Origin: Pseudomonadota bacterium
GTDB taxonomy: Bacteria > Pseudomonadota > Gammaproteobacteria > Xanthomonadales > Rhodanobacteraceae
Direction of reading: 5' to 3'
Length of the DNA stretch: 64,000 bases
NCBI GenBank assembly: GCA_018240565.1
Contig: JAFEFO010000034.1
Coordinates: 186,001-250,000 of the forward strand
Shown here: positions 100 through 53,458 of the stretch, one piece after another
Position numbering within the stretch: the stretch's first letter is position 1
Layout: each line of letters begins with the position of its first letter
The notes under the pieces: model-generated
Databases searched by the model: none
What the model was told of the DNA's origin: nothing
The model's input: the letters and a program-made list of their open reading frames with translations, nothing else
Program-made: the position numbers and the translations under genes

Positions 100-213
100 C
101 GTTTCTGCGTCCGCGAATGCGCGAGCGCGCCGACACTTTGCATGCCTGTAATTCTTCGCCGCATTTGTGGAACTTGATGGATGGTTACCCCACAACGTCC
201 GCAGGAGGACATC

Positions 214-1533
214 ATGCGCAAGGCAATCGTTCCAGTCGTATCCACACTCGCGTTGGCCGTATCGATGGCCATTTCAATGACCGCGTCGGCCGCCAGCTTC
301 AGCTATCACGGCAGCTTGCAGGACAACGGCAAACCTGCCGATGGCAAGTACGATCTGCAACTCACCCTGTATTCGGCAGCGCAAGGCGGCAAGGTCGTGG
401 GCGGCCCGCTCACCCTGTACGCCGTGCCGGTGCAGCACGGCAGCTTCGACACGCAGGCGGATTTCGGCCCGTTGTCGAACGTACAAAACGCCTGGCTCGC
501 GGTCAGCGTCAAGACCGCAGGTAGCGACACCTTCAGTGCGCTCGGCGCCCGCGCTCCAGTGAGTGCGGATGCCACCGCCGCGACCGGCAGCGTATGTCCC
601 GGCGCGTGGACGCTGGCGGGCAATGCGGGCAATCCGGCGGGGAGTTATCTGGGCACGGCGGATGCCAATCCGTTGGTGTTCGAGGTGAATGGCAGCAAGA
701 TCGGGACACTCGCGCCTTCTCCGGTTTCCACCGTACCGGATGCACCCAACGTGGTTTTTGGCGGTTCGACCAATATCGCGGCCGGCGTTGCTGGCGCGAC
801 GATTGCCGGCGGCGGAAGACCAGTGGCATATTGTGGCTCGGGCGGCCAATCGGACTGTGCCAACACGGTCGGTTTTTTCGGCCGTGGCAGCTACGGCACA
901 GTCAGTGGCGGGCGAGGAAACGCTGCCGACGGATATGCGTCAGTAGTACCCGGCGGAGCCGACAACATTGCATTTGGCGACCATAGCTTTGCCGGTGGGG
1001 TCGGTTCCTATGCGTACGGAAATGGCAGCTTCGTATGGTCGGACGCAAGCGCCGACAATGCGTTTGGCTTTAATTCCCCGTTCAACAAGGACAACAGCTT
1101 CAACGTTCGCGCAACCGGCGGTTTCTATCTCGAATCAGGCAACAATGTTGGTGTCCAACTCCTTGCGGGAAGTGGAACCTGGGCACCGTTGAGCGACCGC
1201 AACGTCAAGACGGCCATCAAGAACATCGATGTCAGCAGCATCCTCGACGGCGTGGTGGCGATGCCCGTGACGTCCTGGCAATACATCACCCAGAAGGCCG
1301 ACATCCGCCATTTGGGACCGATGGCGCAGGATTTCTATGCCGCGTTTCATTTGGGCGCTGACAATCGTCACATCCCCGAAATCGATGAAGGCGGCGTTGC
1401 GCTGGCGGCGATCCAGGGCTTGAACAAGAAGGTCGAAGGCGAGAATGCGGCGCTGAAAACCGAAAACGCCACGCTCAAGTCGGAAATCGACGCGATTCGC
1501 AAGCGCCTGGACAAGATCGACGGGAGCAAGTGA
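214..1533 (+). CDS. Secreted protein with C-terminal peptidase S74 (intramolecular chaperone) domain
   Basis: A 439-residue protein of unknown role. The ATG at 214 is preferred over one 33 bases upstream because GCAGGAGG lies just before it and a signal peptide follows, with a hydrophobic core and TASAA cleavage site. Residues 170-290 are rich in Gly, Asn, Ala and Ser and repeat loosely, like the beta-roll stalks of surface fibres. Residues 327-330 read SDRN, the start of the S74 domain. In phage endosialidases this domain drives trimer folding and then cuts itself off between Ser and Asp. The end, about residues 405-436, is a heptad coiled coil rich in ENAALK-type repeats, also typical. No phage genes are nearby, so this is probably a bacterial surface or secreted trimer. 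The next gene starts one base after the stop. Confidence 0.75.
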   Translation: MRKAIVPVVSTLALAVSMAISMTASAASFSYHGSLQDNGKPADGKYDLQLTLYSAAQGGKVVGGPLTLYAVPVQHGSFDTQADFGPLSNVQNAWLAVSVKTAGSDTFSALGARAPVSADATAATGSVCPGAWTLAGNAGNPAGSYLGTADANPLVFEVNGSKIGTLAPSPVSTVPDAPNVVFGGSTNIAAGVAGATIAGGGRPVAYCGSGGQSDCANTVGFFGRGSYGTVSGGRGNAADGYASVVPGGADNIAFGDHSFAGGVGSYAYGNGSFVWSDASADNAFGFNSPFNKDNSFNVRATGGFYLESGNNVGVQLLAGSGTWAPLSDRNVKTAIKNIDVSSILDGVVAMPVTSWQYITQKADIRHLGPMAQDFYAAFHLGADNRHIPEIDEGGVALAAIQGLNKKVEGENAALKTENATLKSEIDAIRKRLDKIDGSK

Positions 1534-1534
1534 C

Positions 1535-1819
1535 ATGCGCGCCCAACGCTTGGCTCTCATCGCCGCCGCGCTGCTGGCTGGCAGCTCGGCCTTCGCCGGG
1601 CAGTTTTCGCTCAGCGGCACGGCACGTTTGTCGCAAGACGCGCCCACCCAGGCCAATTCCCGGTACTCGCTGCGTGCACAGTTGAACACGCCCGCTGCGA
1701 GCAGTGCTGTCGTGCAAACCGGCGCCCGTTACACGTTGTTCGCCGCGCTCACGGCGGCGTCGCTGGTTTGCTACAACGACACGATCTTCCGCGACGATTT
1801 CGACGGCGACGGGTTGTAG
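1535..1819 (+). CDS. Small secreted protein with C-terminal IFRDDFD motif
   Basis: A 94-residue protein with a clear signal peptide (MRAQRLALIAAALLAG, then SAFA) starting one base after the S74 gene, so the two are probably co-translated and may act together. The mature part has no domain I recognise. The C-terminus reads YNDTIFRDDFDGDGL. This resembles the end of the subtilisin-like protease at 51962-53458 ([12 protein letters not shown]) and a stretch near the end of the protein at 36278-37021 (DTVFAQGFD). The shared motif suggests a common C-terminal signal, perhaps for sorting or anchoring, but its function is not known to me. Confidence 0.65.
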   Translation: MRAQRLALIAAALLAGSSAFAGQFSLSGTARLSQDAPTQANSRYSLRAQLNTPAASSAVVQTGARYTLFAALTAASLVCYNDTIFRDDFDGDGL

Positions 1820-36277: not shown

Positions 36278-37021
36278 CTACGGGGAAGGCCCGGCGTGCG
36301 GCAGTTCCCACGCGTCAAAGCCCTGCGCAAACACCGTGTCGACTGGCCCGGCTATCGTGGTCAGTATGGCAAAGCTATTTTGTGTCGATGCCCCCGAAAA
36401 ACACTTTCCGGGCGTCCCGAAGTTCGTGCCGTCACATGCAGAATCAGCATTTGTGAATGCCTTTTCTCCGCAGCCGCTTGCAAACGACATCAAATCCGCA
36501 CAAGGCGTAACTCGATTCAGACTGAAAAGCTCCCCGATCACCATAGCTGTCGACCAGCAAACTTCATCTACGTTGCCGCCAAAGGCACTTGCAAACACGA
36601 AACCCAATGTGTTCGGTTGGTATGCGCCTGTAAACGGGGCCATTAGGCCAATACCGTCCTGCAATCCCATCGAAGTTCCCGTAGTCGTCAGCAGTACTTC
36701 ATCGCGCGGCAAGTTGCCGGGGTCATGAACAGTCAACTTGATATTGAATGGCTCCAACACCGCACGTGTGCATGCCGCTATCTGAGCGAACGTGTCACTG
36801 GAGTACGCAAACGGCTGCACCGTAACCGCCCCATAGATAACCGACGAATAACGATTAACGGCATTGTCATTGCCAGCGTAGATAGGACAGCCACCAATAC
36901 AAGTGTTGAGATAGACAAGCTTCGGAGCAGATGCAGTTTGAATGGCTGCTGAGGATTTGGCAGTTGCACATGACAGCACTGCGCCAAAGACTGCTGCAAG
37001 AAACATGAATTGGGATTTCAT
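36278..37021 (-). CDS. Secreted protein resembling an inactive metalloprotease
   Basis: A 247-residue protein with a signal peptide ([16 protein letters not shown]) and lower GC than its neighbours. From memory, [11 protein letters not shown], the Asn/Ser-rich stretch after it, and [20 protein letters not shown] resemble secreted zinc-protease-like proteins of predators and xanthomonads. In those, a motif like CWTxAxExxHSxGLDH follows. Here the matching stretch reads [17 protein letters not shown], with no zinc-binding His. If the comparison holds, this is a dead protease. Late Cys residues and QNSFAIL also fit. The C-terminal DTVFAQGFD resembles the motif of two other secreted proteins in this window. 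Confidence 0.6.
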
Positions 37022-51046: not shown

Positions 51047-51978
51047 TCGTGGCTCCTTGCCTGGTTGCGCACCCCATGCGGCACATGGCCCGTGGCCACA
51101 TGCTGGCGCGCGGATTCCACGTTCGCGTGCGAATCGTCGAAGAAGATGTCGGCGCCGAAAGTTTGCAGGAACGGTCCCTTGTCGCGGCCGCCGAGGAACA
51201 ACGCCTCGTCCAGGCGCACGCCCCAGCTGCGCAAGGTGAGGATCACGCGCTTGTGCGCGGGCGCCGAACGCGCGGTGACCAACGCGGTGCGGATGGGCGA
51301 TTCGTCACCGGCGGGAAACGCCGCCTGCAGGCGATGCAGTGCGGCGAGGAATCCGCGGAACGGTCCGCCGGACAAGGGCTTGTTGGCATTCTCGACCTCG
51401 TTGCGGTGGAACGCCTCGATCCCTTGTTCCTGCGAGACGCGCTCGGATTCGTCGCCAAAGACCACGGCGTCGCCGTCGAAGGCGATGCGCAATTGTTCCG
51501 ACGCGGTCGTCGGCGCCTTGGATGGCAGGATCGTTGCGGCAGCTATGCCCGCGGCCAATGCCGCTGCGACGCTCTCGGGATTTGCCGACAGGAACAGTTG
51601 CGCGCCAAACGAGTGCACGTAGGGCGAGGTCGGCGCGCCGCCGGTGAACACCGCGCGCGCGATCTGCAGTGCGTAATGCTCGATGGAATTGAAGATGCGC
51701 AGCCCGGTGTCGGCGGAATTGCGCGAGAGCAGGACCACTTCCACGCGTGGCTCTGGCGCATCTTCGTTCAGGCGCAACAGCTTGCGCACCAGTGGAAACG
51801 CGATGCCCGGCGCGAGCAGGTCGTTCTCGCGCGCCATCTGGAAGCGGCGGTATTCGTCGATGCCTTCGCGCTCGAACAGTTCATGGCTCTCGCCCAGGTC
51901 GAACAAGGCGCGTGAGGAGATCGCGACGATCAGGCGATCGCCCGGATCGGAATCGGGGCGGTCAGCGGTCGAAGCCAT
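51043..51978 (-). CDS. Cytosolic 5'-nucleotidase (NT5C1-like)
   Basis: A 311-residue protein of the 5'-nucleotidase family that dephosphorylates nucleoside monophosphates. LIVAISSRALFDLGES is the altered HAD-type start with its Asp (FDLGE), and VEVVLLSRNSADTGLRIF, IAFDGDAVVFGDESE and DIFFDDSHANVE complete the pattern. It overlaps the protease stop by 17 bases and the next gene by GTGA. Confidence 0.88.
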   Translation of the reverse strand: MASTADRPDSDPGDRLIVAISSRALFDLGESHELFEREGIDEYRRFQMARENDLLAPGIAFPLVRKLLRLNEDAPEPRVEVVLLSRNSADTGLRIFNSIEHYALQIARAVFTGGAPTSPYVHSFGAQLFLSANPESVAAALAAGIAAATILPSKAPTTASEQLRIAFDGDAVVFGDESERVSQEQGIEAFHRNEVENANKPLSGGPFRGFLAALHRLQAAFPAGDESPIRTALVTARSAPAHKRVILTLRSWGVRLDEALFLGGRDKGPFLQTFGADIFFDDSHANVESARQHVATGHVPHGVRNQARSHE

Positions 51979-53458
51979 CGATGAAGATCACATCGTTGTA
52001 GGCGGCCAACGCATCGACACGGCCATAGCCCAGTGCATGGTTCGGCCAAACGGTGCTGGCAATGCCGCCGCAGGTTTGCGGTACCGGGTTGGTCACGCCA
52101 GCGCGAATCGCGGTTTCGCGCAAGATGGAGGCCACCTCCGCCGGTTTGCCCTTGAGCGACGGGAATGCCGACATCAGCAAGGCCGCCGCGCCAGCCACAT
52201 GCGGCGTGGCCATGCTGGTGCCGCTCATGTTGGCGTAGCCATTGGTCGGTATGCTCGAATACACGCCATATCCCGGCGCAATCACGTCGGGTCGCACTTT
52301 TGTGGCACCCGCCACCGGCCCGCGCGAGGAAAACCCCACGAGTGCGTCGTTGCTGTCGGTGGCTCCAACCACGAAGCTGGCGTCATAAATCGCGGGTGGC
52401 CCGGCGATCGTGCCACAACCCGGACCCGCGTTGCCTGCCGCAGCAGCATAGAAGATCCCACCAGCGACAAGATTGTTCACCGCCGTTTCGATCTCGTCCC
52501 CGACGGTGCAACCTTCGGAAACGGCGCAATACCACGAATTGCTGACGATATCCGGCGCCAGATCGGGATTCGGGCTGCTGTCACTGGAATTGGTCGGCGC
52601 CAGCATCCACTGCATGCATTCGATGTAACGCGCCGGCGTGCCATTGCCACTGGCCATGTTGCGGCAGCCGATCCACTTCGCGCCGGGCGCGACGCCGATC
52701 TGGTTGCCTGCGCCATCGTCGCCGGCCATCGTGCCCATGGTATGCGTGCCGTGACCGACGTCATCGCATGGAAACGGCGAATCATTGCCGCAGGAACTGC
52801 CGGTGGAATCGTGGATGGCATCGTGCCAGTTGTAATTGTGGTTCACGCCCACGCCGTTCCAGCCGCGATACTTGGCCTTGAGCGCCGGATGATCCCACTG
52901 GTAGCCGGTGTCTTCGCCGCCGATGACCACGCCCTGCCCGGTATCGCCCTTGGCCCAAACCGCGGGCGCGTCGATCTTGCTCACGCCCCAGGCGATGCTG
53001 CTTGCCGCTTGCGGCAAACGTGCGCTCTCGACCTGTGGCAGTTGTTGCGGTATCCGCGGATTCGCATCGATGCGCGCGATATCCGCGCGCGACGCCAATG
53101 CGGTCAATGCCGAAACGGGAATCCGCGCCTGGATCACGTTGGCGATCCAGTAGTCGCGGTGCACGATTCCATGCGCATCGAGCCAATCGCGCGTGACGGC
53201 CTGATCCGCTGCCGCGCGCGCTTGCAGCTGTGCAACCAGGGCGCGACGGCGCACGCGGTAGTCGCTGCCGGAAGCAAGCGGGGCAAGCACCGGCGTGGCC
53301 TGGTCGGGAAACACGAGCAGCACATCCGCGCTACCGGCGGCGGACAGCGCCCTGCGCACCTGCGGATCGACCACGGCGGCACTCGCGCTGGCGGCGGCAA
53401 GCAGGCACAGCGCCCCCGCGATACTTGGGACGAACCGCTCAGTAGGCAAACTGCTCAT
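51962..53458 (-). CDS. Secreted subtilisin-like (S8) protease with IFIDGFDR tail
   Basis: A 498-residue bacillopeptidase-F-like protease. A signal peptide ends near ASASAA, an inhibitor-like propeptide runs to about residue 150, and the catalytic triad is Asp183 ([12 protein letters not shown]), His236 (VGHGTHTMG) and Ser415 ([12 protein letters not shown]). The oxyanion Asn lies in [18 protein letters not shown]. The C-terminus is [14 protein letters not shown]. It starts inside the end of nadK (20-base overlap), so a secreted protease is co-transcribed with cytosolic NAD genes. Confidence 0.93.

Follow-up and report, generated by a model that had tools for sequence, protein, structure and literature searches.

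A short C-terminal tail on unrelated exported proteins of Lysobacterales, a probable recognition element for a second type II secretion system

The choice of cargo by type II secretion systems (T2SS) is unsolved, since their substrates share no evident linear sequence (PMC7949064). In PelI an exposed 9-residue loop acts as a signal and interaction with GspC and GspD domains is needed (PMC7949064), and the PDZ domain of EpsC is needed for VesB (PMC12369372). The GlyGly-CTERM tag of the rhombosortase system (PMC3237569; VesB in Vibrio) is found at the C-terminus of T2SS-exported surface proteins and combines a Gly/Ser motif with a membrane helix and basic residues. PEP-CTERM with its exosortase and MYXO-CTERM with its myxosortase are tripartite tails with a membrane helix, spread in a patchy manner over many unrelated exported proteins. 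The type IX secretion CTD is a C-terminal signal on Sec-exported proteins for passage of the outer membrane; it is a folded domain in Bacteroidota.

The tail described here has the consensus D-x-[IVL]-F-x-[ND]-G-F-[ED] and stands 0-10 residues from the stop codon in about 40 otherwise unrelated exported proteins of the host genome. It resembles the signal of PelI and Pel3 (exposed loop 3; PMC7949064) in being a short, putatively exposed element on folded exoproteins that would be read by T2SS components, but the latter is a loop of one protein family and part of a composite signal, whereas here one linear C-terminal sequence is found on dozens of unrelated proteins. With GlyGly-CTERM it would share the relation of many proteins to one machine, but it has neither the Gly/Ser motif nor the helix nor the basic residues. 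The helix and basic end of PEP-CTERM were likewise absent, as the protein stops 0-10 residues past the motif and the maximum 17-residue mean hydropathy within the last 45 residues was 1.6. The tail consensus also lacks an LPXTG-like motif with helix and basic end. The sequence-only reading from which this work started had compared the tail with LPXTG and PEP-CTERM; the comparison held for the distribution (unrelated folds, patchy taxonomy and "choice-of-anchor" domains) but failed for the anatomy. No type IX CTD model was present among the 25 most frequent NCBIfam or Pfam families of 92 tail proteins, or among the matches of the proteins P0001, P0003 and P0004 listed below.

The window, that is the whole stretch of 64,000 nucleotides that was analysed (G000:C27:186001-250000), belongs to a metagenome-assembled genome (MAG) of 2.99 Mb in 45 contigs, which is 94% complete. 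The features of interest are:

181..1533, + strand: exported protein, upstream neighbour of P0001; its end resembles an S74-type intramolecular chaperone in our reading
1535..1819, + strand: P0001, small exported protein of 94 aa (translation), signal peptide MRAQRLALIAAALLAGSSAFA
1778..1816, + strand: C-terminal tail of P0001, DTIFRDDFDGDGL, variant D-x-I-F-x-D-D-F-D
36278..37021, - strand: P0004, exported protein (translation) with a signal-peptide-like start, gene less certain
36314..36340, - strand: tail-like DTVFAQGFD of P0004, 11 residues before the stop, with Q replacing N/D
51962..53458, - strand: P0003, S8 (subtilase) protease with signal peptide and tail, Pfam Peptidase_S8 (E=7e-43)
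51965..51994, - strand: C-terminal tail of P0003, 10 residues (translation)

A C-terminal motif common to P0001, P0003 and P0004 had been proposed from the letters, and all three tails are indeed present. The match in P0004 is degenerate and fits the consensus in part, and the gene was not picked by the coding-potential gene caller; P0004 is therefore counted as a possible case only. Neither P0001 nor P0004 gave a significant match to Pfam or NCBIfam. The translation of P0001 ends in ..YNDTIFRDDFDGDGL, and a homologue encoded in a Rudaea MAG (L084) bears the same tail. The pairing of an exported protein with an S74-like end and an adjacent small tail protein recurs in L059, L084, L111, L115 and L157. 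Orthologues of P0003, 43-62% identical, were found in tail-rich genomes, and in these the tail was mostly kept at the extreme end, even behind inserted extra domains (L188, L190), with degenerate tails in several and none in L191. An AlphaFold model of P0003 built from three sequences had a mean pLDDT of 36.

Over the whole host genome the pattern TTYNNNRRYGGNTTYGA (F-x-[NDSG]-G-F-[DE]) gave 53 matches versus 3 for the reversed pattern, and 38 of the 53 lay in frame and at most 12 residues from the stop in long open reading frames. Enrichment over shuffled controls, the check suggested beforehand, was found in a 0.5 Mb sample: the C-terminal 25-mers of 36 out of 377 complete genes matched, a frequency inflated by the choice of sampled stretches around matches, and the comparisons with shuffled ends (mean 0.02, maximum 1 in 200 shuffles) and with the protein bodies of the sample (5 matches in 134,152 residues) remain valid. 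Genes and signal peptides were called by simple in-house scripts. By these heuristic calls, signal peptides were enriched among tail genes, as had been anticipated, both when any nearby start was accepted (30/37 versus 128/316 other genes; Fisher 2.6e-6) and with the caller's starts (16/37 versus 74/316; p=0.015).

Alignment of 39 tails of the host genome gave D, two residues before [IVL], in 35, [ND] in 35 and G in 36, and both F positions and the final [ED] were occupied in all 39. After the motif came 0-10 residues, usually none or one. Third codon positions vary, with all four bases used for Gly, so it is the peptide and not the DNA that is conserved; AT-rich relatives write the same peptide in AT-rich codons. 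No conserved cysteine or arginine cluster was seen in the aligned host tails, no Pfam or NCBIfam counterpart of the tail was found, and the open-licence literature yielded no description of the tail strings, of a C-terminal T2SS signal or of a T2SS in the carrier genera. The C-terminal enrichment and the low hydropathy agree with a short tail of a new kind without a membrane helix, as the sequence-only reading had it, which may function as a secretion recognition element. The link to a second T2SS, the internal copies and the variant ending in DRFE, described below, go beyond that reading.

When 92 tail proteins from the host and named genomes were aligned together, the two phenylalanines of the tail were the only invariant columns. 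These proteins match 90 Pfam families at E<=0.001 (some models overlapping), including S8 and M12B peptidases, MauG, beta-helix, Kelch, FG-GAP, endonuclease I, beta-lactamase and DUF1501. The domain choice_anch_Q, named for its variable C-terminal anchors, was present in 19 of the 92. A Tat signal model was matched by 3 of the 92 and, as Tat cargo folds before export, the tail would act in the periplasm or later. The motif also occurs internally, in frame, at domain junctions of large exported proteins (L002, L006, L007, L012, L031, L046); in L006 it separates the pro-part of an S8 protease from its catalytic part, and in L046 it lies within an RHS repeat protein. Such copies are easier to reconcile with an exposed recognition peptide than with a processing site confined to the C-terminus. 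Tandem double tails also occur, such as ..IFADGFEVLDRIFANGFEP at one C-terminus (L025), and motif pairs 33-39 bp apart were seen in G377, G400 and G462.

Across 369 genomes of the class the pattern was at background (0-3 matches) except in the order of the host. Within this order (Lysobacterales/Xanthomonadales, 299 genomes) most families have the tail, with up to 143 matches per genome; the absence of enrichment in the genome and its relatives, which would have spoken against the motif, was thus not observed. The distribution in the host's own family is patchy, with 19-143 matches in some genera and nearly none in others, including two genomes of the host's genus. Named carriers among the matches listed are Dokdonella, Tahibacter, Chiayiivirga, Aquimonas, Pseudofulvimonas, Rudaea MAGs, Marinicella and many Lysobacterales MAGs. 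Tail proteins were also seen on contigs of a Sedimenticola MAG (L075, L101), possibly mis-binned Lysobacterales contigs.

In the own family, a second secretin of the GspD type (TIGR02517) was present in tail-rich genomes and absent from tail-less ones. It belongs to an operon gspC2-gspD2-gspE2, with gspF2 next to it or at a distance of a few kb, located beside trxA/rhlB and here called T2SS-2. In GspC2 the T2SSC domain is accompanied by a weak PDZ match that falls slightly short of Pfam's cut-off (E=2e-5); the secretin and the ATPase are typical (Pfam Secretin, T2SSE), and T2SSF was also matched. A genome was scored positive for GspD2 if a match reached >=44% identity across most of the protein, or if a fragment of it lay at a contig end; matches of 37-40% in other genomes of a second family (f2) were scored as absent and taken as another T2SS. 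Of the 299 genomes of the order, those with at least 9 tail matches were divided into 64 with and 4 without GspD2, and those with fewer than 9 into 54 with and 177 without (Fisher 3e-27, from hand-transcribed counts and with phylogeny ignored). The four tail-rich genomes scored negative (G412, G482, G487, G546) are fragmented drafts of 180-530 contigs. In the own family (f1) GspD2 was present in 11/11 tail-rich genomes, and the 62 genomes without it had at most 2 matches; in f2, the two genomes with GspD2 had 30 and 21 matches and the 76 without it at most 2. All ten other tail-rich genomes tested have a second GspG at another place in the genome, and the 94% complete host MAG showed a single one. 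The other T2SS, with the gene order E-F-G-H-I-J-K-L-M-N-D, presumably like that of Xanthomonas Xps, is also encoded in own-family genomes without tails, so a T2SS as such is not enough to account for the tail. Tail genes flank the T2SS-2 operon in L221, L225, L229, L235, L236, L255-L257 and L260, which is modestly above expectation by a rough hand estimate. Genes for an ECF sigma factor and Ser/Thr kinase-TPR proteins recur beside tail genes and the operon (L221:5339-8898, L225, L229, L235, L236), hinting at shared regulation; Ser/Thr kinases were also found in L045, L051, L054, L056, L060 and L095.

In carriers the T2SS-2 site reads rho-trxA-rhlB-[gspCDEF]-ftsE-ftsX-rpoH. In all ten tail-less genomes inspected, from f1 and f2 and including both congeners, gspC2 to gspF2 were missing, rhlB was followed by ftsE-ftsX and the order rho-trxA-rhlB ... 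ftsE-ftsX was kept, with rpoH where in range. In both congeners a permease lies between rhlB and ftsE-ftsX. As the operon occupies the same site in other families of the order, its absence points to loss, which probably happened more than once.

DUF1501 proteins could be compared between genomes with and without T2SS-2. All nine of the closest orthologues in genomes with T2SS-2 end in the tail (GIFQGTDLPP-linker-tail or a close form), whereas the four orthologues (42-48% identical) in f2 genomes without T2SS-2 keep the preceding sequence and end in an unrelated extension without the motif. More distant homologues in genomes with T2SS-2 were mixed, with a tail in G400, G421, G375 and G371 and none in G370, G381, G372 and G455, the last at 47% identity. 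The DUF1501 tails in L268 (G367) and L269 (G655) end in GFQ instead of GFE or GFD.

If the tail belongs to T2SS-2, the 54 genomes with GspD2 and fewer than 9 matches, mostly of family f190, should hold a tail missed by the DNA pattern. G401 has T2SS-2 and a single match to the glycine-type pattern. In a 400 kb spread sample of this genome the most over-represented C-terminal triplet was F..D..F, and 10/295 genes ended in [IVL]FxDRFE or a close form, with Gly replaced by Arg, compared to 0.05 in shuffles. The prediction was thus met in G401, the one such genome examined. As a negative set, 145 genes at ten rhlB loci without T2SS-2 contained neither type of tail. Exceptions were found on both sides. 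Family f187 has T2SS-2, yet neither tail type was found in 184 kb of G373, and five f188 genomes (G427, G461, G441, G486, G535) have 3-8 tail matches without a GspD2 orthologue. Three f1 genomes scored positive for GspD2 have 0-1 matches; in these, G594 (L232), G621 (L258) and G639 (L259), the secretin is GspD2-like, GspG homologues lie nearby and the T2SS arrangement is different.

The tail, in the form D-x-[IVL]-F-x-[ND]-[G/R]-F-[ED], is probably a linear C-terminal secretion recognition element for the PDZ-type T2SS-2. Most tail proteins have the Sec or Tat signal expected of T2SS substrates (30/37 by the heuristic calls, together with the Tat model matches), and the host genome encodes a matching T2SS (T2SSC, PDZ, Secretin, T2SSE and T2SSF, with the single GspG). 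After export by Sec or Tat the tail proteins would fold in the periplasm, with the tail left exposed on a short linker to the folded domain. T2SS-2 would bind the tail on its periplasmic side, with the PDZ/HR region of GspC2 or the N-domains of GspD2 as the likeliest binding site, and the folded protein would then be passed through the secretin. Such a mechanism fits the loop signal of PelI and the need for the PDZ domain of EpsC. The link between tail and T2SS-2 is correlative; we infer from it that T2SS-2 reads the tail, and the naming of an exact receptor is speculative. The true partner could instead be some other gene that was lost along with T2SS-2. A stronger claim, that this is the first shared linear signal for any T2SS, a nine-residue address sufficient for passage through T2SS-2 that co-evolves with its periplasmic reader in lineages with the G-type or the R-type, is put forward tentatively, with the chances slightly against it.

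A different role for the tail, as a sorting or anchoring tag bound or cleaved by a surface receptor or processing enzyme outside the T2SS and lost together with T2SS-2, is unlikely. The tail does occupy the usual anchor position of choice_anch_Q proteins, its distribution is like that of PEP-CTERM, and tandem and internal copies exist, but no feature of cleavage or anchoring was seen in the form of a helix or a conserved cysteine or arginine cluster. Cleavage at Asn/Asp-Gly by a legumain-type (C13) transpeptidase was considered and rejected; the R-type tail lacks the Gly, and the protease distribution does not track the tail, PF01650 being present in tail-less congeners and absent from the tail-rich f183, f186 and f189. 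The f185 genomes G381, G398 and G371 are rich in partial C13-type matches, with as many as 12 per genome, most of them inside frames of >1200 aa. An exosortase was rejected as partner as well, as PF09721 is absent from the host genome (G000) and most tail-rich relatives of the family (G643, G645, G474, G514, G367, G655). In the 8 kb loci around tails no partner enzyme was found; the recurring genes were those for Ser/Thr kinase-TPR proteins and the exported protein with the S74-like end.

Less likely still, the tail marks a lifestyle in which numerous large beta-rich proteins are exported; shared ancestry and gene loss alone would account for its correlation with T2SS-2, and its role would be another one, such as a fold-capping hairpin or a site for a periplasmic chaperone. 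The genomes are not independent, close S8 relatives likewise track tail-rich genomes, and the [ND]-G pair could form a turn. However, DUF1501 orthologues persist without the tail in genomes without T2SS-2, the operon is missing between intact flanks in both f1 and f2, and a fold-specific role is hard to reconcile with a tail that occurs in dozens of unrelated families. Chance, low complexity or a mobile DNA repeat adding a coding tail can practically be dismissed, even though the tails are short and in a few genes tandem, given the 53 versus 3 reversed matches, the shuffle mean of 0.02 and the free synonymous sites with their AT-rich codons in AT-rich genomes, which rule out a repeat at the DNA level.

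As a recognition element for T2SS-2, the tail could be read directly from genomes and would let the T2SS-2 secretome be listed by sequence. The question of cargo choice would become testable by removal or swapping of the tail in cultured Dokdonella, Tahibacter or Chiayiivirga, and the tail could serve as a portable tag for the export of folded proteins. The C-termini of many exported proteins that lack annotation in environmental Lysobacterales would also become interpretable.
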